From positions 98,048 through 140,420 of the forward strand of contig PLBO01000152.1 of assembly GCA_003134555.1 (NCBI GenBank): a stretch of 42,373 nucleotides of DNA. The letters are read 5' to 3'. Each line of letters begins with the position of its first letter. The stretch's first letter is position 1. The translations under genes and the position numbers were made by a program. Source of the DNA: Actinomycetota bacterium. GTDB taxonomy: Bacteria; Actinomycetota; Acidimicrobiia; IMCC26256; PALSA-610. The notes beneath the pieces were generated by a model. It was not told the origin of the DNA, did no database searches, and saw only the letters and a program-made list of their open reading frames with translations. Shown here piece after piece: positions 17,167 to 29,171 of the stretch.

Positions 17167-18930
17167 TCAGGTTCCCATTCCCGTCGGGGCCTTGGCGATC
17201 TCGGTGAGGAACTCCTTGTTGCTCTTCGTGCTGCGCAGCTTGTCGATCAGCAGCTCGAGCCCCGACCCACCCTCGAGTGCGCCGAGCACGCGCCGCAACT
17301 TCCAGACCTGCTGGAGGTCGTTGCGGTCGAAGAGCAGCTCCTCGTGGCGGGTGCTCGACTGCTCGACGTCGATGGCGGGGTAGATGCGCCGGTCGGCGGT
17401 GCGCCGATCGAGACGCAGCTCCATGTTTCCGGTGCCCTTGAACTCCTCGAAGATGTGCTCGTCCATCTTCGAGTTCGTCTCGACGAGCGCTGTGGCAAGG
17501 ATCGTGAGCGATCCGCCTTCTTCGACATTGCGCGCGGCACCGAAGAACTTCTTCGGCGGGTAGAGCGCGCCGGCGTCGATACCGCCCGACATGATGCGGC
17601 CCGAGGCCGGCGCCGCGAGGTTGTAGGCGCGCGCCAGACGGGTGATGCCGTCGAGAATGATCACGACATCCTTCCCGCACTCGACGAGTCGCTTGGCCCG
17701 CTCGATCGTGAGCTCGGCGATGTGGCAGTGCTCTTCGGAAGGCCGGTCGAAGGTGGAGGCGACAACGTCGGCGCGCAGCACGTGCCGGCGCATGTCGGTG
17801 ACCTCTTCGGGACGCTCGTCGACGAGCAGCACGATGACGTGGCACTCGGGGTTGTTGCGCTCGATCGAGTAGACGATCTGCTTGATGATCGTGGTCTTGC
17901 CCGCCTTGGGCGGCGACACGATCATCCCGCGTTGACCTTTCCCGATTGGCGCGATGATGTCGATAATGCGTCCGGTGATTTCCCCCGGGTTGTCGTCGAG
18001 CTCGAGCCGGAGCCGCGAGTCGGGAAACAACGGCGTGAGGTCTTCGAAGCGAACGCGGTGACGCGCCTCGTCGATGCCGATCTCGTTGATGAGGTCGACG
18101 CGCACGAGCGCGGGATACTTCTCACTGCTCGCGGGCGGCCGGGTCGCACCCTTGACGTGGTCGCCCTTGCGCAAACCGAAACGCCGCACCTGCGATGCGG
18201 AAACGTAGGCATCGTTGCGGCCGGCGAGGTAGCCGGACGCGCGCAGGAAGCCGTAGCCCTCGTCGCGCAGATCGAGCAGACCTTCGATGTCGATCAGCTC
18301 GCCGGCGAAATCGTCGCTGCCCCGGTCGGTGCGCTCCGTGCGCTCGGGGCGGTCGGGACGGGTCTCGCGATCGACGCGACCATCGCCGGGAGTCCGCTCG
18401 CGGTCGCGACCACGACGGCGGCGGCGACGCTTGTTTCCCGAGCCGTCGTCGTCGCGCCACTGCTGTTGACCCTGGTGCGAGCGGTCGACCGAACCTGCGT
18501 CGGTGTCGGTGTCGGTTTCGGTGTCGGTCACATCGCCTTCCGCGGAGACGGGCTCCGATGTGGCGGCGACGGTTCCGCGGCCGTTCGACGACGAATCGGA
18601 TTCGTCGCCGGAGTCGGTGCGGTCGGTCGAGGCACTCCGCCGGGGGCGGATGAGAGCCATGTCGTCGCCCGAATCTCCGCCGCCCGCGAGCGCGTTCTGC
18701 TCCTCGGCGATCGATGCAAAATCGTCGCCGCCCGCGCCGGCGGTCGATCGGACCTTGCGCGGGGCCGACCTCTCCGCGCCGTTCGAGCCGGTCGCGGCGG
18801 TGGCGATCGCATCGATCAGATCGGCTTTGCGCATCCGGCTGACCGACTTCACGCCGAGCGCGGACGCAATCTCCGAAAGCTGGTCACGATCCTTCCCGTC
18901 CAGTTGTGAACGGTCGAAGGTCTCACTCAT
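17167..18930 (-). CDS. rho: Transcription termination factor Rho with long low-complexity insertion
   Basis: A hexameric RNA helicase that terminates transcription. The 587-residue protein starts with a Rho N-terminal helical domain ([20 protein letters not shown]). A disordered stretch of about 165 residues (48-213) follows, rich first in Asp/Ser/Thr and then in Arg. Next come the RNA-binding CSD ([14 protein letters not shown]...[16 protein letters not shown]) and the ATPase core with Walker [10 protein letters not shown] (339-347), [11 protein letters not shown] and [15 protein letters not shown]. Insertions of this sort are common in high-GC actinobacteria. ATG 18930 has AGGAG about 6 bases upstream. 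It is preceded by a 313-base non-coding leader. Confidence 0.97.
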
Positions 18931-19243: not shown

Positions 19244-20413
19244 TCATCGCTCGACGAGACGAGCCATGAGGGAGTGACCGGGAACCGGCACGCACCCAGC
19301 GGTCGCGGGTTCGGTGTAGCGACCGCCCGCGCCCGCGCGCATCGAGTCGTACAGCAGGAACGGCACCGGGTCGGCGCTGTGCGTCTTGGTGTTGCACGGC
19401 GTGGCGTGATCGGGCATCAGGAGTATCCGATATGGCTCGCCGCCCGCGTCGAGCGCGTCGACAACCGGCCCGATCACTTCCGTGTCCCATCGCTCGAGCG
19501 CGTCCACTTTGATGTCCGAACGACCAAGGTGTCCCGCCTCGTCGGTGGCTTCGATGTGCAACACGAACAGATCCCGATCGACGAGTGAGCGGATACAAGC
19601 TTGCGCCTGCGCGCCGTAGTCGTTGTCGAATCCCGCCGTCGCGCCCGGCACGTCGACCACTTCGATGCCCGTCAGGACACCGAGGCCCTGCACCAGATCG
19701 ACCGCCGACGACATTCGGCCCTGCACGCCGAACGTCGCGGCGAACGAGGGCAGCGCCGGCTTCACGCCCTGACCCCACAACCAGATCTGAGTCGCGCTCG
19801 ATCCGACCGAACGGGCCGCGTCGCGCACGACGGCGCGCGACGCATCCATCAACGCGTTCACCCGCGGCGCGGAGGCGCCGCGAGGGAACACGGCCGGTTG
19901 CCCGGTGAGGTCGTGCGGCGGTGTGCACTCGGCGTCCGTCCACGTACTCGGCACGACGCAGAGGTGGCGATACTCGACGCCGGGATGGAAGCGCACTCCG
20001 TCGCGGCCGGCGCCGAGCGCGGCATCGAGCGCGGCGACGATCGCGTGACTCTGCTCGTTCGTCGGATGACCGGCCGCGAAGTCGACCATGTTCGGCTCGT
20101 CGTCGTCGGAGAGCGTGACCAGGTTGCACCGGTACGCAACCTCGTGGGGTTCGAGCTCGACGCCCATCGCCGCCGCCTCGATGGGAGCGCGACCCGTGTG
20201 GTACCGCTCGGGGTCGAAACCGAGGATCGACATGTTGCCGACGTCGCTGCCGGGAGCGAGGCCGGGCGGGATGACGGCGGCACGCCCGACGTCGGCCTTC
20301 GCCGCGAGCGCCGCCAGGCGGGGCATGCGCGCGGCTTCCAGCGGCGTTCGGTCGCCGAGCTCGGGCAACGACACGTCGGCGCAACCGTCGGGAACGAACA
20401 CGACGTATTTCAT
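19244..20413 (-). CDS. Archaeal-type phosphoglycerate-mutase family protein; candidate homoserine kinase
   Basis: A 389-residue alkaline-phosphatase-superfamily protein of the ApgM (2,3-BPG-independent phosphoglycerate mutase, COG3635) type. Metal and phosphate-site motifs are visible: FVPDGCAD (Asp9), PGSDVGNMSILG with Ser57-62 region, HIEATDEAGHLG and MPDHATPCNTKTHS. A subfamily of this fold, often encoded near threonine genes, has been proposed to be homoserine kinase. The gene occupies the position between thrC and rho where actinobacteria usually carry thrB, and no GHMP-type thrB is seen in the window. Either activity is possible from sequence alone. The start at ATG 20413 is by homology; ATGs at 20422 and 20425 are alternatives. 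Confidence 0.8.
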   Translation of the reverse strand: MKYVVFVPDGCADVSLPELGDRTPLEAARMPRLAALAAKADVGRAAVIPPGLAPGSDVGNMSILGFDPERYHTGRAPIEAAAMGVELEPHEVAYRCNLVTLSDDDEPNMVDFAAGHPTNEQSHAIVAALDAALGAGRDGVRFHPGVEYRHLCVVPSTWTDAECTPPHDLTGQPAVFPRGASAPRVNALMDASRAVVRDAARSVGSSATQIWLWGQGVKPALPSFAATFGVQGRMSSAVDLVQGLGVLTGIEVVDVPGATAGFDNDYGAQAQACIRSLVDRDLFVLHIEATDEAGHLGRSDIKVDALERWDTEVIGPVVDALDAGGEPYRILLMPDHATPCNTKTHSADPVPFLLYDSMRAGAGGRYTEPATAGCVPVPGHSLMARLVER

Positions 20414-20500: not shown

Positions 20501-21712
20501 GTGCGGCGCTCATGGATCGTCGCCGGTGCACTCCTCCTCGCGGCGTGCGCCGGCGGATCGTCCGACAAGTTGGTGTCGCCCCCGCCGATCCCGCCGACGA
20601 GCCCCGCGCCGAGCACGAGCACGAAAACCACGCCGCCGCCGACGCGGCAGCCCGCGCCACCCGACCTTGCCCGCGTGCGCGTGACGCTGACGTCCGTCGT
20701 GTCGGGTCTCGACAGCCCGATCGCGCTCGCGTGGCGGGTGCACGACACCAACATGTTCGTGGCCGAGCAAAGTGGCCGTGTCCGCATCGTCGACGCGAAC
20801 GGCCGGCTCTCATCAACGCCGGTCCTCACGGTCGGGCCGCTCTCGCGAGGCAACGAGGAAGGCCTCCTCGGCATCACGTTCTCGCCCGACGGCTCGAAGC
20901 TCTACGTCGACTACACCGACCCGAACGACGACACGCACGTCGACGAATACACGATGCGCGGCGAAGTCGCAGTCGCCTCGACGCGCCGCCAGTTGCTCGT
21001 CGTGCCGCAGCCGAATTCGAACCACAAGGGTGGCGAGGTGATCACCGGTCCCGACGGGATGCTCTACATCGGGCTCGGCGACGGCGGCAGCGAGGACGAC
21101 CCGAACAACTTCGGCCAGAACCTCGGAACGCTGTTGTCGAAGATCCTGCGCATCAATCCGGTCGCGAGCGGAAGCGCGCCCTACTCGGTCCCCGCCGACG
21201 ATCCGTTCGTCGGACGAGGCGGAGTGCGTCCGGAGACCTGGATGTGGGGACTGCGAAATCCGTGGCGCTTCTCGTTCGACCGCAAGACGGGCGACGTTTG
21301 GATCGGTGACGTCGGCCAGAACAAATACGAGGAGGTCGATTTCGCACGCGCGGGCGAGAAGGGAATCAACTTCGGTTGGAGCGCTCGCGAAGGCTTCCAC
21401 GCGTTCCGCGGCGCGACACCGAACGGCGTGCGCGATCCGGTGCTCGAGACGCGGCACTCCGACGGCAACTGCGCCGTCGTCGGCGGCTATGTGTACCGAG
21501 GTCGCGCGATACCCGCGCTCAACGGCGTGTACGTCTTTGGCGACGACTGCCGGCAGAACCTCGTCGGCGCGGTCGCATCCAACGGGCGCTTGATCGCGCA
21601 ACGCGACCTCGGCCCGGTCGTGTCGCAACTCACGACGTTCGGCGAGGATCTCGACGGCGAGATATACGCGGTAGCGCGCGGCGGCACGGTGTTTCGGCTC
21701 ACCGCTCGCTGA
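20501..21712 (+). CDS. PQQ-type sugar (glucose/sorbosone) dehydrogenase-like lipoprotein
   Basis: A 403-residue exported lipoprotein. Its signal peptide ends in LLLAACAGG (lipid-anchor Cys16) and is followed by a Pro/Ser/Thr-rich linker to about 55. The six-bladed beta-propeller of the GSDH family (PF07995) follows: FVAEQSGRVRIVD, GNEEGLLGITFSPDG, SNHKGGEVITGPDGMLYIGLGDGG, WGLRNPWRFSFD, WIGDVGQNKYEEVDF and GGYVYRG. The His in SNHKGG corresponds to the catalytic base region of soluble glucose dehydrogenase. Substrate and PQQ use are not certain. TAGCCT lies 7 bases before GTG 20501, so the message may be leaderless. Its stop touches the stop of the convergent SDR gene. Confidence 0.88.
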   Translation: MRRSWIVAGALLLAACAGGSSDKLVSPPPIPPTSPAPSTSTKTTPPPTRQPAPPDLARVRVTLTSVVSGLDSPIALAWRVHDTNMFVAEQSGRVRIVDANGRLSSTPVLTVGPLSRGNEEGLLGITFSPDGSKLYVDYTDPNDDTHVDEYTMRGEVAVASTRRQLLVVPQPNSNHKGGEVITGPDGMLYIGLGDGGSEDDPNNFGQNLGTLLSKILRINPVASGSAPYSVPADDPFVGRGGVRPETWMWGLRNPWRFSFDRKTGDVWIGDVGQNKYEEVDFARAGEKGINFGWSAREGFHAFRGATPNGVRDPVLETRHSDGNCAVVGGYVYRGRAIPALNGVYVFGDDCRQNLVGAVASNGRLIAQRDLGPVVSQLTTFGEDLDGEIYAVARGGTVFRLTAR

Positions 21713-22486
21713 TTATGTGCCCGCGCGCTTCAATATCGCTCCGCTCAGGCGACGGGTGATCACGTGCGGCGTGATCGCGGAGAGGGTGCCCATCACCTTG
21801 TTCGTCGTGCCGGGAATGACGATCGCCTTGTTCTTGGCGACGCCGTCGAGCCCGGCGCGCGCGACCTCGGGCGCCTCCTGCCACATGAAGCCGGGCACCG
21901 AGCCGGCCGGCACGTTGGCGCGCGACTGGAACTCGGTGTGGGTGAAGCTGGGACACAGCGCGGTTACCGACACACCCGTGCCTCTCAGCTCTTCGTGCAC
22001 CGCCTCCGTGAACGACGTCACGAACGCCTTCGTCGCGCTGTAGGTCCCGTTGGAAGGACCGGGCTGGAAGCCGGCGAGCGACGAGACGTTGAGGATTCCG
22101 CCGCGGCCGCGCTCGACCATCGCGGCGGCCGCCGCGTGCGTGAGCCGGACGAGCGCGATCACGTTCAGGTTGATCTCGCGGATCTCGGTGTCGAGGTCGA
22201 GCGTGTGGAACGGGCCGAACGTGCCGAAGCCCGCGTTGTTCACCAGGAGGTCGACCTCGCGCGCCCGGGCTTCGACCGCAGCCAGCTGCTCGGGGTCGGT
22301 GAGGTCGGCCGCGAGCACCTCGGCGTGCGCGCCGTTTCGACCCTCGATTTCCTTGGCCAGTGCCTCGAGGCGCGCGGTATCGCGGGCGACGAGCACCACG
22401 TCGTGACCGCGCTCCGAGAGCTGCCGCGCGAACTGCTCGCCGATTCCGACGGACGCACCCGTGATCAACGCAACCGGATTGCTCAT
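21713..22486 (-). CDS. Short-chain dehydrogenase/reductase (SDR family)
   Basis: A classical SDR of 257 residues with a Rossmann fold. The NAD(P)-binding TGASVGIG is at 9-16, followed by LVNNAGFGTFG, the catalytic Ser in LNVSSLAG, and the Tyr-Lys pair in GTYSATKAF. Arg/Asp following the second strand (VLVARDTARL) suggests NADP preference, which is tentative. ATG 22486 is chosen because AGCAGG lies about 8 bases upstream; an in-frame GTG at 22492 is the alternative. It starts 10 bases after the sortase stop on the same strand. The substrate is unknown. Confidence 0.88.
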   Translation of the reverse strand: MSNPVALITGASVGIGEQFARQLSERGHDVVLVARDTARLEALAKEIEGRNGAHAEVLAADLTDPEQLAAVEARAREVDLLVNNAGFGTFGPFHTLDLDTEIREINLNVIALVRLTHAAAAAMVERGRGGILNVSSLAGFQPGPSNGTYSATKAFVTSFTEAVHEELRGTGVSVTALCPSFTHTEFQSRANVPAGSVPGFMWQEAPEVARAGLDGVAKNKAIVIPGTTNKVMGTLSAITPHVITRRLSGAILKRAGT

Positions 22487-22496
22487 GTGCACCTGC

Positions 22497-23159
22497 TTAC
22501 GTGGGGCGTTTGATGTCGGCGGCCAGGATCGCCTTTACAACAATGCGTTGCGCCGCGCTGTGTTTCGGATGGCACGCGATCAGCGTCACCGTGGGCGACC
22601 TGGTGGGATCGGTCACGAAGAGCGCGCTGGGTTGAACGATCTGCGTGCTGGTGACCTTGTACACGCAGTCTCTCCCTGGCATGTGAAACACGATCTGGTC
22701 GCCCAGAGAAAGGAGGTCGAGGTTCAAGAACGGATGCGAGTGGGTGACCCGGTGGCCGGGGAACACCGCGTTGCCGGCCTGGCACGGCAACGCGGATCCG
22801 GGCCAATGACCGGGCCCGTGATCGATCACGGTGAGCGTGATGCCCTCGTACACGGCGTGTATCAGGCCGATCTTCGGTATCTCGATGGTGCCGATCTGGA
22901 TGACCGGACCCGGGGCGTAGGGATCGGCCGGCGGCGGGAACGGATGCGGCAACTTCTTCAAGTCGAAGGTCGTCGTGGTCTGGTGCGTCGGGGGGGTGCG
23001 CACCTTCGTCGTCGTGGTCGCCGCCGCCGCGAGGAGCGGCGAGTCGTCCGTAGAACGGGTGTCGCCGCGGTTCACCACGGCCGCGGTCGTGAGCGCGGCG
23101 GCGATCACGATGCCGAGTGCGCTGAGCGCCGCAATCAATCGCTTCCTCGTCATCCTCAC
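22497..23159 (-). CDS. Class E-like sortase
   Basis: A 220-residue membrane-anchored transpeptidase that should link sorting-signal proteins to the cell wall or to pili. It has an N-terminal membrane anchor (about 8-28) and a Thr/Pro-rich linker. The sortase domain carries catalytic His136 in VFPGHRVTHSHPF, Cys196 in VTLIACHP and Arg205 in AAQRIVV. The order His, Cys, Arg and the TLxxC context fit class E/D enzymes of actinobacteria. No LPxTG/LAxTG substrate gene is seen in the window, so it is a solo housekeeping type here. It lies 16 bases after thrC. Confidence 0.88.
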   Translation of the reverse strand: MRMTRKRLIAALSALGIVIAAALTTAAVVNRGDTRSTDDSPLLAAAATTTTKVRTPPTHQTTTTFDLKKLPHPFPPPADPYAPGPVIQIGTIEIPKIGLIHAVYEGITLTVIDHGPGHWPGSALPCQAGNAVFPGHRVTHSHPFLNLDLLSLGDQIVFHMPGRDCVYKVTSTQIVQPSALFVTDPTRSPTVTLIACHPKHSAAQRIVVKAILAADIKRPT

Positions 23160-23175
23160 TCCATCCCTACCCAGC

Positions 23176-24228
23176 TCAGAGGCCGAGCTCCTCCACCACC
23201 ACGTCGACGGACGCTTCGACGGCCGGTCGCGCCTCGATCTGGGCGATGGCCCGGTTGGGGTCCTTCAACCCGTGGCCGGTCACCGTGCAGACGATTGTCT
23301 CACCTCGCTCGACCAATCCGACCGCGGCCGCTTGCAGCAGCCCCGCCACCGACGCCGCCGACGCCGGCTCCACGAACACGCCTTCTTGCGACGCGAGCAT
23401 GCGGTAGGCCTCGAGAATCTGGGCGTCGGTGACCGCACCGATGTGGCCGCCCGACTCGTCGCGCGCCGCGATCGCGGAGTCCCAACTCGCCGGATTGCCG
23501 ATCCGGATTGCGGTCGCGATGGTCTCCGGAAACGCGACGGGCTCGCCGTGCACCAATGGCGCCGATCCTGCGGCCTGCCAGCCGAGCATGCGCGGCCGCT
23601 TCGAGACGACACCGTCGCTCGCGTACTCGCCGTATCCCTTCCAGTACGCGGTGATGTTGCCGGCGTTGCCGACGGGGATGCAGTGCACGTCGGGAGCGGC
23701 GCCGAGCGCGTCGCAGATCTCGAACGCGGCCGTCTTCTGGCCCTCGATGCGGAACGGGTTGATCGAGTTGACGATGGTGACGCCGCCCCGCTCCCCCAGC
23801 TCGCGCACGACGCGGAGCGCGTCGTCGAAGCTGCCGCGGATCGACACGACCTTGGCACCGTGGATCAACGCCTGCGCGAGCTTGCCCAGGGCTACGTGAC
23901 CGTCGGGGATGATGACCGCCGCGAGCATCTCGGCCCGGGCCGCGTAGGCCGCCGCGCTCGCCGAGGTGTTGCCGGTCGACGCGCAGACGACGACCTTGGC
24001 GCCGTCCTCGGCCGCCTTCGAGATCGCCATCGTCATCCCGCGATCTTTGAACGATCCCGTCGGGTTCGCGCCTTCGACCTTCAACATCACGCGCGCACCA
24101 ACCGCATCCGAAAGGCGCGGCGCGTCGACGAGCGGCGTGTTGCCTTCGCACAACGTCACGATGGGCGTCTTTTCCGTGACCGGCAATCGCGCGCGATACG
24201 CGTCGATGATTCCCCGCCAACGATCCAC
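23176..24228 (-). CDS. thrC: Threonine synthase
   Basis: A PLP enzyme that converts O-phosphohomoserine to threonine. The 350-residue product is the short actinobacterial form: [25 protein letters not shown] with Lys61 as Schiff-base lysine, [32 protein letters not shown] and [18 protein letters not shown] 24228 is two bases from the hom stop, so the genes are co-translated. Its substrate must come from a homoserine kinase, which is not present as a classical thrB nearby. Confidence 0.96.
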
Positions 24229-24230
24229 GT

Positions 24231-25520
24231 CTACTCCTCGCCTCCGACGACCCGCAGGACCGATCCGATTCGTCCGACGACGTCGAGCTCCCGCACGTCG
24301 TGGATGGTCGCGGTCAACGCGGCTTCGCGCGCGAGGTGCGTGACGAAGATGAGGCGGGCGCCCGCGCCCTGCCCCTTCTGCTGCATCGATTGGATCGAGA
24401 CCTCGTGGTCGCCGAACACGCCCGCGATCGTGGCGAGCACACCGGGCTGGTCGGCAACGTCGAGAGATACGTAGAACTGCGACGCGGTCTCGTCGATCGG
24501 ACGGATCGGCTTGCGGACGAGATCGCCGATCGTTGCCCCGCGCGCGCCGGCGCGGACGTTCTTGGCCGCGTCGATCAGGTCGCCGAGCACCGCGCTCGCC
24601 GTCGGACCGCCGCCGGCGCCCCGCCCGAGCAGCATCAGCTGGCCGACGGACTCGCCCTCGATGAACACCGCGTTGTAGGAGCCGCGAACCGACGCGAGTG
24701 GATGGTCGATCGGCACCATCGCCGGATGCACGCGCGCGCCGACGCCGCCGTCGTGCTCCTCGGCGACCGCGAGCAGCTTCACGACGTAACCGAGCTCCTT
24801 CGCCGCGGCGATGTCGTCGGCGGTGATCTTGGTGATCCCCTCGCGGTAGACGTCGCCCGCGACGATGCGGGCGCCGAACGCGATGCTTGCGATGATCGCG
24901 GCCTTCGACGCGGCGTCGAGCCCTTCGACGTCGGCGGTGGGGTCGCGCTCGGCGTAACCGAGCTCCTGCGCCTCGGCCACCGCTTCCGAGAAGCTCGAGC
25001 CCGCTTCGGTCATCTGCGTCAGCACGTAGTTCGTCGTGCCGTTCACTATGCCCATCACGCGGGTGATGCGCTCACCCGCGAGCGACTCGCGCAATGGCCG
25101 CATGAGCGGAATGCCACCCGCGACCGACGCTTCGAACAGCAGGTCGACGCCCGCGGTCTCGGCGGCGTCGAACAGCTCCTCGCCGAAGTTGGCGAGCAGC
25201 TCCTTGTTCGCGGTGACGACCGGCTTTCCGGCCTTCAGCGCGGTCAGGATCAGGCGGCGCGCGGGCTCGACGCCACCGATCACCTCGACTACCACGTCGA
25301 TCGCGGGATCACTCACGACCGCGTCGGCGTCGTTGGTCAGCACGCCCGGAGCGAGATCGACGTCGCGTTCCTTGGCCACGTTGTGCACCGCGACCCGGGA
25401 GACCACGAGCTTCACACTGGAACGTTGGGTGATGAGATCGGCGTTGGAATCGAGCAGGCGCACGAGCGCGCCTCCCACGTTCCCGCAGCCCAGCAATCCC
25501 ACTCGTACGACGTCGGTCAC
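24231..25520 (-). CDS. hom: Homoserine dehydrogenase with C-terminal ACT domain
   Basis: Reduces aspartate semialdehyde to homoserine. The 429 residues comprise an N-terminal NAD(P)-binding fold ([17 protein letters not shown]), [11 protein letters not shown], the catalytic core ([53 protein letters not shown]) and a C-terminal ACT domain ([23 protein letters not shown]) for amino-acid feedback. GTG 25520 overlaps the stop of the AbiEi-like gene by four bases (GTGA). The open frame upstream is not homologous. Core operon with thrC. Confidence 0.96.
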
Positions 25521-26146
25521 CCGGCCATTCTTGCGGATGGGTCGACCCGCCCTGAACCGATTGCCGCCAGGAGCGTTCGGAGGCTGGCGGCGCCGGGCCG
25601 ACCGACCGTGCCGATCTCGTCGAGTCGAGCGCGAACCGCGCGGATAGTGACGAGGCGGTGAGACCGAGCGCTCTGGAGGGCCCTTTCGAGTTCGCCGGCG
25701 CCGAGCACACCCGCGAGGTCGATGATGGTCCGCACCGGCGACGTGACCGGCAGCCGCCCGACGCGGAGAACATCTTCGTCGTCGATTCGGGTGACGCGGT
25801 GAACGACGACGCCGCGGACACGGGGCGCCCGAGTGTTGGGGACGATCAGCTCCGGCCGGCCGAGCACGGCACCGCGGATGCGCCAGATCGCGGCCGCGCT
25901 CGCGTGCGACAGCGCGCTCTCCGGCCCGGCCCACAAGACCGCGGCCCAGTGTGCAAGCGCGCTCGACGCCGGCGTCGCCGAGTGCCGGTAGACACGCGGA
26001 AGCACGCGCACCCACACCTCGCCACGCACCCGCCGTTCGATCTGCGCCGCGCTGAAGCCCGATGCCGTCGCCTGACCGCGCGTGAACACGCCCTGCTGTA
26101 CGACCGCGACCGCCGCCAGTCGCGCGTCGGCCGCCAACGTCGACAT
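25517..26146 (-). CDS. AbiEi-type antitoxin domain protein, apparently lacking the C-terminal DUF559 nuclease domain
   Basis: A 209-residue protein. The N-terminal helix-turn-helix-like part (QGVFTRGQATASGFSAAQIERRV) and the following VWVRVLPRVYRHSATP and ALSHASAAAIWRIRG match the AbiEi-like family common in actinobacteria. Most such proteins are about 280-320 residues and continue into a Vsr-like DUF559 nuclease domain after a GRPG...LRTLL motif. Here the protein ends soon after that motif. Its stop overlaps the hom start, so it sits inside the lysA-hom operon, 62 bases after lysA. No partner toxin is nearby. Whether it is a functional regulator or a trimmed relic is not known. Confidence 0.7.
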   Translation of the reverse strand: MSTLAADARLAAVAVVQQGVFTRGQATASGFSAAQIERRVRGEVWVRVLPRVYRHSATPASSALAHWAAVLWAGPESALSHASAAAIWRIRGAVLGRPELIVPNTRAPRVRGVVVHRVTRIDDEDVLRVGRLPVTSPVRTIIDLAGVLGAGELERALQSARSHRLVTIRAVRARLDEIGTVGRPGAASLRTLLAAIGSGRVDPSARMAG

Positions 26147-26208: not shown

Positions 26209-27519
26209 TTACGCGTCGGCGTCGAGCCGGACCAGATCCGAGTCGGTCTCTCGACGCACCACGAGGCGCGCCGAGCCATCTCGGACGAACACCACGGCCG
26301 GCCGGGTGACCTTGTTGTAATTCGACGCCATGGAGTGGCAGTACGCGCCGGTGACCGGCGTCGCGAGTACCTCGCCGATCGCGACGCCGCTCGGCAGCCG
26401 GGCGTCGCGCACGACGATGTCGCCCTGCTCGCAATGCTTGCCCGCGATCGTGACGATCGCGGGCCGATCGGCGGTGGCCCGCGCAGGCAGGAACGTTTCG
26501 TAGCGCGCGCCATAGGTGACCGGGCGCAGGTTGTCGCTCATTCCGCCGTCGACCGCGACGTAGGTGCGCACGCCTTCTATCTCCTTGATGGTGCCGATGG
26601 TGTAGAGCGTGATGCCGGCCGGCGCGACGATCGACCGTCCGGGCTCGGTGAGCAGTTGTGGGCGCGAGCGCACGCCCGCGTCGGCGAGCGCCTTGCCGAC
26701 CGCCTCGTGTACCGCGGTCGCGTACTGCTCGATCGTGGGCGACTCGTCGTCGGACAGATAGCGCACACCGAGGCCACCACCGAGGTTGAGCTCTTCGACC
26801 GCAGCACCGGCTTCGACCTCGATCGCGCGGACGAGGCCGACCATCTTGTCGACCGCACGCTCGAAGGAGTCGAGGCGGAACACCTGCGATCCGATGTGAC
26901 AGTGCACGCCCGCGAACCGGAGCACGCCACCGGTGACGACGCGCTGCACGGCTGCCAGCGCCTCGCCGCTGTCGAGACCGAACCCGAACTTCGAGTCCTC
27001 GACGCCGGTCTCGATGTACTCGTGGGTATGCGCCTCGACGCCGGGCGTGACCCGTATGTGCACCCGGGGCGCCGGCAGCCCGTCGCGCACAAGAGTCTCG
27101 AGTCGTTCGAGCTCGCTCGTCGAGTCGACAGCGATACGCCCGACACCGGCCTCGAGCGCGGTTCGCAGCTCGGCCGTCGACTTGTTGTTGCCGTGGAAGA
27201 CGATCCGCTCGGGCGGGAAACCGGCAGCCAGCGCGACGTACAGCTCGCCACCGGTCGCGACATCGAGGTGCAATCCCTCCTCGTGCACGAGGCGCGCCAT
27301 CGCGACACACAGGAACGCCTTGCTCGCATATGCCACCCCCTCACCGAAGGCGGAGCGGTAGACACGACAGCGAGCGCGGATGTCGGCTTCGTCGTAGACG
27401 TACAGCGGCGTGCCGAACCGCTCGGCCAGCGACGCGAGGTCGACGCCGGCGATCGCGACCCGGCCCGAGTCGTCGACAGTCGCCGACGCGGGGAGCAGCG
27501 AGACGTCGAACGCGCTCAC
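26209..27519 (-). CDS. lysA: Diaminopimelate decarboxylase
   Basis: A PLP enzyme that decarboxylates meso-diaminopimelate to lysine. The 436 residues form an alanine-racemase-type barrel with Lys67 in AYASKAFLC, FHGNNKS, VHCHIGSQV (His and Gly-rich phosphate region), NLGGGLGVRY, EPGRSIVAPAG and the C-terminal domain with GKHCEQGD (active-site Cys) and GAYCHSMASNYN. GTG 27519 overlaps the argS stop (GTGA). Lysine, threonine and arginine-tRNA genes share this transcript. Confidence 0.96.
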   Translation of the reverse strand: MSAFDVSLLPASATVDDSGRVAIAGVDLASLAERFGTPLYVYDEADIRARCRVYRSAFGEGVAYASKAFLCVAMARLVHEEGLHLDVATGGELYVALAAGFPPERIVFHGNNKSTAELRTALEAGVGRIAVDSTSELERLETLVRDGLPAPRVHIRVTPGVEAHTHEYIETGVEDSKFGFGLDSGEALAAVQRVVTGGVLRFAGVHCHIGSQVFRLDSFERAVDKMVGLVRAIEVEAGAAVEELNLGGGLGVRYLSDDESPTIEQYATAVHEAVGKALADAGVRSRPQLLTEPGRSIVAPAGITLYTIGTIKEIEGVRTYVAVDGGMSDNLRPVTYGARYETFLPARATADRPAIVTIAGKHCEQGDIVVRDARLPSGVAIGEVLATPVTGAYCHSMASNYNKVTRPAVVFVRDGSARLVVRRETDSDLVRLDADA

Positions 27520-29171
27520 GCGTCGAACACGTCCTCGTCGCGATCGAGCCGGGTCATCTCCTCGGGCGCGTGCACTCCAAGGACGCCAAGCGCGTTGGCG
27601 AGCCCGATCCGGCACGCTTCCGTGAGCCAGAGCCGCGCCTGGGTGAGTTCCGCGTCGTCGGAGAGCACCTTGCAGTCGCGATAGAAGCCGTGGAACACGC
27701 CCGCGAAGTCGCGGGCCCACGTGCTGATCTTCTGCGGCGCACGGACCTCGGCCGCCTCGTGAACCGCGTCGGGGTAGTTGGCGAGCGCGCGCAGCAGCTC
27801 GGCCTCGCGCTCGTGGACGAGCGGCGACAGGTCGACCTCGGCCAGCGGTCTGCGCACCACGTCCGCGCTCTCGGCCCTCCGGCCGATCGACGCGATGCGT
27901 GCGTGCGCGTACTGCACGTAGTACACGGGGTTCTCGCGCGACTGCTCGGTCACGACGTCGAGGTCGAACGTCTGAGCCGTGTCGATGCCCTGCAGCAGGA
28001 ACGTCATGCGCGCGACATCGGGATCGACCTCGTCGAGGATGTCGGCGAGCGTGACGATGTTGCCGGTTCGCTTCGACATCCGAACCTCTAGGCCGTCCTT
28101 CACCACCTTCACGAACTGCCCGAGGATGATCTCCGGCTCGCCGGCCTCGAAACCGAGCGCCTGCATGCCCGCCTGTAACGACTTCACCTGTCCGTGATGG
28201 TCGGCGCCCCAGATGTCGATCAGGTGCGTGAAGCCCCGACGGAACTTGTCGCGGTGGTACGCGAGGTCGTTGCAGAGATACGTCGTGCTGCCGTCACTGC
28301 GAACGAGGACGCGGTCGCGTTGGTCGCCGAAGTCGGTGGACCGCAACCAGCGCGCACCGTCGCGCTCGTAGACGAAGCCCTTTTCGGTGAGCTGCGCGAG
28401 CACGTCGGCCACCTCGCCGCGCTCGTGCAGCGTGCGCTCGGAGAACCAGGTGTCGAAGCGCACACCGACCCGCTCCAGGTCGGCCCGCAAGCTCTGCACG
28501 ACGTGCCGGTAACCCCACTCGCACGCATCGTCGGGCGTGACGTCGTCACCGAGCTCGGCGTGGAGCTGCGCCGCCATGTCGACGAGGTACTGGCCGTGGT
28601 AGCCGTCTTCGGGCGGCTCGACGTCGCGGTAGCGCGCGTAGAGCGAGTCCCGAAACTTGTCGAGCTGCGCGCCGGCGTCGTTGAGGTAGTACTCGCGGTG
28701 CACCTCGGCACCCTGCGCGGCGAGCAGGTTGGCGATGGCGTCTCCGACCGCGACCCACCGCCCACCGCCGGCGTGCAAGGGCCCGGTGGGATTCGCCGAC
28801 ACGAACTCGAGGTTGATCCGCCAGCCCGTGAGCACCGTCGAGCGGCCGTATTGATCCCCCGCCGCGACCACAGTGCGCAAGACGTCGTGCAACCAGGTCG
28901 GCGCGAGAAAGAGGTTGAGGAAGCCGGGACGGGCAATCTCGACCTTCGCGAGATGCGGGACGGCATCGGCCTCGAGCGCGTCCTTGACCCGTTCCGCGAT
29001 GTCGAGCGGGTTGGCGCCGACGACACGGTTGAGTTGGAGCGCCACATTCGACGCCCAGTCGCCGTGCTCACGGCTGCGAGCCGGGTCGAGCCCGATGCCT
29101 CCGGGCGGTTCGGGAAGACCCGCCCGGTCGAGCGCGCGACCCAGCGCCGTACGAAGGTCGTCTCGAATCAT
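27516..29171 (-). CDS. argS: Arginyl-tRNA synthetase
   Basis: Class I aminoacyl-tRNA synthetase that charges tRNA-Arg. The 551 residues comprise an N-terminal Add1 domain (REHGDWASNVALQL) and the catalytic fold with SANPTGPLHAGGGRW; the HxGG form replaces HIGH, as is usual in actinobacterial ArgRS. These are followed by EYYLNDAGAQ, WGADHHGQVKSL, VRMSKRTGN (KMSKS counterpart) and a helical anticodon-binding domain (NPVYYVQYAHARI). ATG 29171 is the start. It is the first gene of the argS-lysA-AbiEi-hom-thrC chain and lies divergent from the GGDEF gene. Confidence 0.97.
   Translation of the reverse strand: MIRDDLRTALGRALDRAGLPEPPGGIGLDPARSREHGDWASNVALQLNRVVGANPLDIAERVKDALEADAVPHLAKVEIARPGFLNLFLAPTWLHDVLRTVVAAGDQYGRSTVLTGWRINLEFVSANPTGPLHAGGGRWVAVGDAIANLLAAQGAEVHREYYLNDAGAQLDKFRDSLYARYRDVEPPEDGYHGQYLVDMAAQLHAELGDDVTPDDACEWGYRHVVQSLRADLERVGVRFDTWFSERTLHERGEVADVLAQLTEKGFVYERDGARWLRSTDFGDQRDRVLVRSDGSTTYLCNDLAYHRDKFRRGFTHLIDIWGADHHGQVKSLQAGMQALGFEAGEPEIILGQFVKVVKDGLEVRMSKRTGNIVTLADILDEVDPDVARMTFLLQGIDTAQTFDLDVVTEQSRENPVYYVQYAHARIASIGRRAESADVVRRPLAEVDLSPLVHEREAELLRALANYPDAVHEAAEVRAPQKISTWARDFAGVFHGFYRDCKVLSDDAELTQARLWLTEACRIGLANALGVLGVHAPEEMTRLDRDEDVFDA

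Follow-up and report, generated by a model that had tools for sequence, protein, structure and literature searches.

The window, a stretch of 42,373 nucleotides from one contig of an Acidimicrobiia assembly (4.63 Mb, 154 contigs, 98.35% complete), contains the genes lysA, hom, thrC, sortase, SDR, GSDH, apgM and rho in this order, all on the minus strand except GSDH. The lysA gene (26209-27720), located upstream of hom, encodes a diaminopimelate decarboxylase-type protein (PF02784, PF00278). The hom gene (24231-25520) encodes homoserine dehydrogenase, which makes homoserine (Pfam Homoserine_dh, 230 bits; NF004976, 539 bits), and its conserved neighbor thrC (23176-24228) encodes threonine synthase, which consumes O-phosphohomoserine (TIGR00260, 311.8 bits versus a cut-off of 167.1). 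An ORF between lysA and hom (25520-26113) has no Pfam match in the part tested. The genes of a sortase (22497-23159; PF04203), an SDR protein (21713-22492; PF00106) and a glucose/sorbosone-dehydrogenase-like protein, GSDH (20501-21712, plus strand; PF07995, 127 bits), separate thrC from apgM; these Pfam matches agree with the initial annotation, where GSDH was listed as PQQ. As the plus-strand GSDH gene intervenes, the window apgM does not share an operon with hom and thrC. The transcription terminator gene rho (17167-18930; Pfam Rho_RNA_bind, ATP-synt_ab) is the conserved downstream neighbor of the slot. A search for known RNA leaders or riboswitches near these genes found none.

In other actinobacteria, the slot occupied here by apgM is filled by a GHMP-type thrB. 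The apgM-like ORF (19244-20413, minus strand) is uninterrupted and encodes 389 aa from an ATG at position 20413, with the N-terminal sequence MKYVVFVPDGCAD. The motifs PDGCAD, PGSDVGNMS, DEAGHLG and MPDHATP were all found in it, so the translation and the profiles alike agree with the earlier reading of an intact ApgM-like gene with metal/phosphate motifs between thrC and rho. The protein scores above the cut-offs of Pfam Metalloenzyme and PhosphMutase and of TIGR00306 (apgM; 398 bits versus 320), and below those of NF003242 (422 bits versus 426) and TIGR02535, "proposed homoserine kinase" (404.1 bits versus 446.3). NCBIfam gives this one clade two conflicting names, NF003242 being designated "cofactor-independent phosphoglycerate mutase".

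The profiles of apgM, thrB, gpmA and gpmI were scored in 159 Acidimicrobiia genomes. ApgM matches split into an A-type, present in 37 genomes including the source genome, which has a single apgM, and a lower-scoring B-type, present in 6 genomes. Seven other A-type proteins tested reach 456-514 bits with TIGR02535 (cut-off 446) and 467-529 bits with NF003242; relatives from the class (L083, L086) as well as from other phyla exceed the TIGR02535 cut-off. Three B-type proteins score 157-173 bits with TIGR02535 and match NF003160 instead. A maximum-likelihood tree was constructed for 104 proteins (96 A-type rows), including the archaeal mutases 2zkt and 3kd8. Placement in such a tree had been suggested in the initial annotation, and the window protein fell with the hom/thrC-linked clade, inside the A-type, which is split from the B-type and 2zkt/3kd8 with 100/100 support; long branches connect the two sides. 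The proteins of the B-type loci (L116-L121, NF003160) have Glu at position 295, where other ApgM proteins have a metal-ligand His, and the B-type is therefore labeled as mutase from its co-occurrence pattern and from its name in NCBIfam.

The catalytic serine and the metal ligands are conserved in the window protein (D9, S56, D291, H295, D335, H336, H345), and all 96 A-type proteins retain them. According to structure prediction (pLDDT 97), its model matches the archaeal mutase fold (2zkt_B, Z 43.8, rmsd 2.5, 357 aligned residues). Conserved zinc sites have been noted for BT2402, the Bacteroides member of TIGR02535 (PMC9765024). Five other positions separate the two types: Arg or Lys at 112, 113, 116, 213 or 288 occurs in none of the 96 A-type proteins, versus 6/6 B-type proteins and both archaeal mutases. 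In place of R112, R113, R116, R213 and K288, the A-type proteins have F/Y, A/S/T, mostly H, W and E, and the window protein has F, A, H, W and E. The mutase motifs are DRRAGR, LxRG and a Lys three residues before the metal-ligand Asp; those of the A-type are D[F/Y]xxG(H), WLWGQG with an invariant VDL, and HxE. Judged from the sequence motifs, the signature residues probably lie near the active site, and the loss of basic groups together with the gain of acidic ones would fit an amino-bearing, phosphate-free substrate such as homoserine. No nucleotide-binding feature was identified in the ApgM-like protein.

According to a TBLASTN comparison of the window genes with relatives, almost all close relatives whose contigs are long enough have the order hom-thrC-(SDR/GSDH/sortase)-apgM-rho. 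The genes inserted between thrC and apgM are specific to the lineage of the window; GSDH is a conserved element of this order, and the sortase gene is found in some close relatives. At two loci, the segment from thrC to apgM contains three tandem GSDH genes, encoded on the opposite strand (L109:5563-9034, L148:4244-7892). At seven loci (L083, L086, L193, L194, L195, L201 and L219), thrC and apgM are within about 125 bp of each other. A second large group has hom, then a gap of the right size, then apgM; at L176, the sole locus of this group checked, the space is taken up by the gene of a threonine synthase of the long type, with Thr_synth_N and THR4_C domains (TIGR00260). This long ThrC (L176:6102-7922) and the short PALP-type ThrC of the window (23176-24228) occupy the same place beside an A-type apgM in different lineages. 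One Omnitrophota locus has the order hom-apgM-lysC, with lysC named from its sequence. B-type apgM genes are not near the genes of the hom/thrC/rho block. The relict synteny on which the initial annotation relied is thus real and widespread, and its recurrence as hom-thrC-apgM-rho in the class makes it a conserved association.

The initial annotation also stated that GHMP-type thrB is missing. This is correct for the window, where none was found; the matches in the genome sit on other contigs. For the whole genome, the premise of a missing homoserine kinase proved wrong, because a divergent GHMP ThrB is encoded on contig C10, unlinked to hom and thrC. Its score with TIGR00191 (131 bits) is below the cut-off of 168.25, as is that of many sole ThrB proteins of the class. 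Only homoserine kinases match it in the PDB (6cyz best, E 3.6e-26), and 26 of the 27 columns conserved in the class are intact. The gene adjoins an SDR gene, and the same pair occurs in relatives from the family. The best match to APH-type thrB in the genome reaches only 20 bits versus a cut-off of 255.9. The search for another mutase revealed gpmA on contig C49 (321 bits versus a cut-off of 81.7) and no classical gpmI in the source genome. A classical thrB elsewhere combined with the lack of another phosphoglycerate mutase had been named as the pattern that would speak against the proposal; since gpmA accompanies thrB, the genome does not have this combination. Contamination as the origin of thrB and gpmA is unlikely, because both contigs share the tetranucleotide signature of the window (correlation 0.99 for each), and the relatives share the ThrB-SDR pair. 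Decay of the GHMP ThrB was likewise rejected: with a single departure in the 27 conserved columns, the protein is probably still functional, since ThrB diverges no faster in genomes with both genes than in those with one. Thus, as far as its gene content indicates, the source genome is in a dual state: there are two candidates for homoserine kinase, and the mutase is encoded separately.

Taking a match over 80 bits as thrB, 31 of the 159 genomes have the A-type only, 6 have both genes, 100 have thrB only and 22 have neither; the GHMP matches of 38-49 bits in the genomes with the A-type only were taken as presumably other GHMP kinases. The avoidance between A-type and thrB is significant by genome (Fisher p = 3.8e-13) and by family (p = 1.3e-4), both values being uncorrected for the tree. 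The A-type is unrelated to gpmA (p = 1), whereas all 6 B-type genomes have neither gpmA (p = 5e-6, not tree-corrected) nor gpmI, as expected if only the B-type is a mutase. These patterns show two kinds of ApgM in the class: a mutase-like one, confined to genomes that lack the usual mutase, and one whose presence follows the loss of homoserine kinase. The 22 genomes with neither gene, among them G031 (L118), indicate that other solutions for the threonine step exist; several of them are genomes of about 1 Mb from a single family (f14). Three MAG records titled "Bifidobacterium breve" (L149, L165, L169) group with Acidimicrobiia and appear to be mislabelled.

Within the family of the window, four other members carry both apgM and thrB, and three genomes (G015, G023, G052) have thrB and no A-type gene. 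In these three, the lysA-hom-thrC-GSDH-rho block is intact (L231:5057-8740, L232:6015-8087, L233:4706-7961), and GSDH and rho are about 290-350 bp apart, versus the 1571 bp that hold apgM in the window. A search for apgM remnants in these relatives yielded no more than a single match of 15 bits, located on a different contig. The ThrB-only members are therefore a natural deletion of exactly apgM. Most other A-type-bearing families of the same order have lost thrB. Such reciprocal loss of apgM or thrB would be expected if the two genes are redundant for one step.

Based on the observed clade membership, synteny, complementary distribution, residue signature and presence of thrB and gpmA, the window protein is likely to be of ThrB2 type, that is, to represent the bacterial A-type within the ApgM fold and to supply the ThrC encoded nearby with O-phosphohomoserine by phosphorylating homoserine, the step being probably doubly encoded. 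The idea of a non-homologous homoserine kinase is thereby favored by the clade and by the complementarity with thrB; the protein is not the sole candidate, given the conserved GHMP ThrB elsewhere. In the proposed mechanism, a two-metal site of the alkaline phosphatase fold would transfer a phosphoryl group via phospho-Ser56 to the hydroxyl of homoserine, whose amino group may be bound by Asp239 and Glu288. The donor would be a small phosphorylated compound, most likely a glycolytic C3 acid (PEP or phosphoglycerate), with ATP also possible. The source organism may use both the ApgM-like protein and the unlinked GHMP ThrB in vivo, and gpmA would serve glycolysis. A bolder and more tentative version would regard the A-type proteins as donor-swapped homoserine phosphotransferases, i.e. 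a mutase scaffold without its basic residues that takes phosphate from a glycolytic acid and not from ATP, with the family of the window caught in the middle of an exchange with GHMP ThrB. Several points count against the ThrB2 reading: homoserine kinase is already represented in the genome by a conserved GHMP ThrB, which evolves no faster than in relatives without ApgM; the window protein is under two of its profile cut-offs (TIGR02535 and NF003242); a plus-strand gene splits apgM from hom-thrC; BT2402 did not complement an E. coli thrB mutant (personal communication cited in PMC7311316); and there are 22 genomes with neither gene.

It is very improbable that the thrB slot holds, by chance, an ordinary cofactor-independent phosphoglycerate mutase of the archaeal type. 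The solved archaeal mutases are the best fold match of the window protein (2zkt), the names of TIGR00306 and NF003242 say mutase, and the metal ligands and catalytic serine are intact; however, the five basic residues of the mutases are absent from every A-type protein and the linkage to threonine genes is strong. Moreover, gpmA is already present, so the ApgM-like protein is not needed as the mutase of the organism, and across the class it is the B-type, not the A-type, that goes with the absence of gpmA.

The two other explanations concern the division of labor with the GHMP protein. If the ThrB of contig C10 were the only working homoserine kinase, the apgM-like gene would be an unused leftover or have another role, in agreement with the conserved columns of ThrB, its 6cyz match and the loss of apgM with retention of thrB in three family members. 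Yet the ApgM-like protein appears to be under selection, because the clade signature residues are kept in all six genomes with both genes and the identity among the closest relatives is 74-88%; this makes the explanation decidedly unlikely. Conversely, the phosphorylation of homoserine could fall mainly to the ApgM-like protein, with the GHMP protein of the family now phosphorylating another alcohol. In the source genome and G079, the latter protein has an A for a G in the GPGFD motif and TPT in place of TST, and its gene is unlinked to hom and thrC and lies beside an SDR gene; but the same SDR neighbor occurs in the ThrB-only relatives G052 and G023, and the dual genomes show no elevated rate of divergence. 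Such a change of substrate is unlikely as well, and the ThrB2-type reading with a doubly encoded step is preferred.

The idea of a homoserine kinase of this kind is already published (TIGRFAM, GapMind, ThrB2), the name ThrB2 having been given to the proposed enzyme (PMC9026213), and the clade is biochemically unproven: in the literature searched, no paper demonstrating the homoserine-phosphorylating reaction by it was found. Mutants of BT2402 need threonine (PMC7311316), and the TIGRFAM curators suggested phosphoenolpyruvate or a similar compound as the donor (as cited in PMC7311316). In 148 prototrophs, ThrB was of low confidence in 20% (PMC7311316). An earlier survey counted the archaeal-type iPGM of Bacteroidetes, Clostridia and Deltaproteobacteria as mutases (PMC2964296). 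As far as the literature was searched, the following elements are new: the survey of the profiles across Acidimicrobiia, in which the B-type serves as a control; the signature of residues; the order hom-thrC-apgM-rho; and, in the family of the window, the dual state together with the reciprocal losses. Homoserine kinase is among the steps most often missing in bacterial amino acid reconstructions, and the five-residue signature is a simple separator of ThrB2-type proteins from mutases. The natural losses of apgM in one family and the relatives with the A-type only are clean systems for testing the function of the family.

Among known systems, TIGR02535/ThrB2 (Bacteroides BT2402; PMC7311316, PMC9026213, PMC9765024) shares its clade with the window protein, as judged by score and by the tree relative to the mutases, and the A-type shares with it the linkage to hom/thrC and the anti-correlation with thrB. 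The window protein differs in scoring under the cut-off, in lying in a slot that in Acidimicrobiia is between thrC and rho, and in coexisting with a conserved GHMP ThrB. With the archaeal-type mutases (2zkt, 3kd8, 3idd; NF003160/PRK04135 in bacteria) it has the fold, the two-metal site and the catalytic serine in common, but it lacks the arginines of DRRAGR, R213 and K288, is linked to threonine genes, and occurs in a genome with gpmA. GHMP ThrB (TIGR00191), represented in the same genome by the protein of contig C10, would share the proposed reaction, whereas its fold is unrelated. The phosphonoformyl transferase PhpG (NF038358) is also of the ApgM fold and carries out a transfer reaction other than that of a mutase; the window protein scores 160 bits versus its cut-off of 545, and the PhpG pathway is different.
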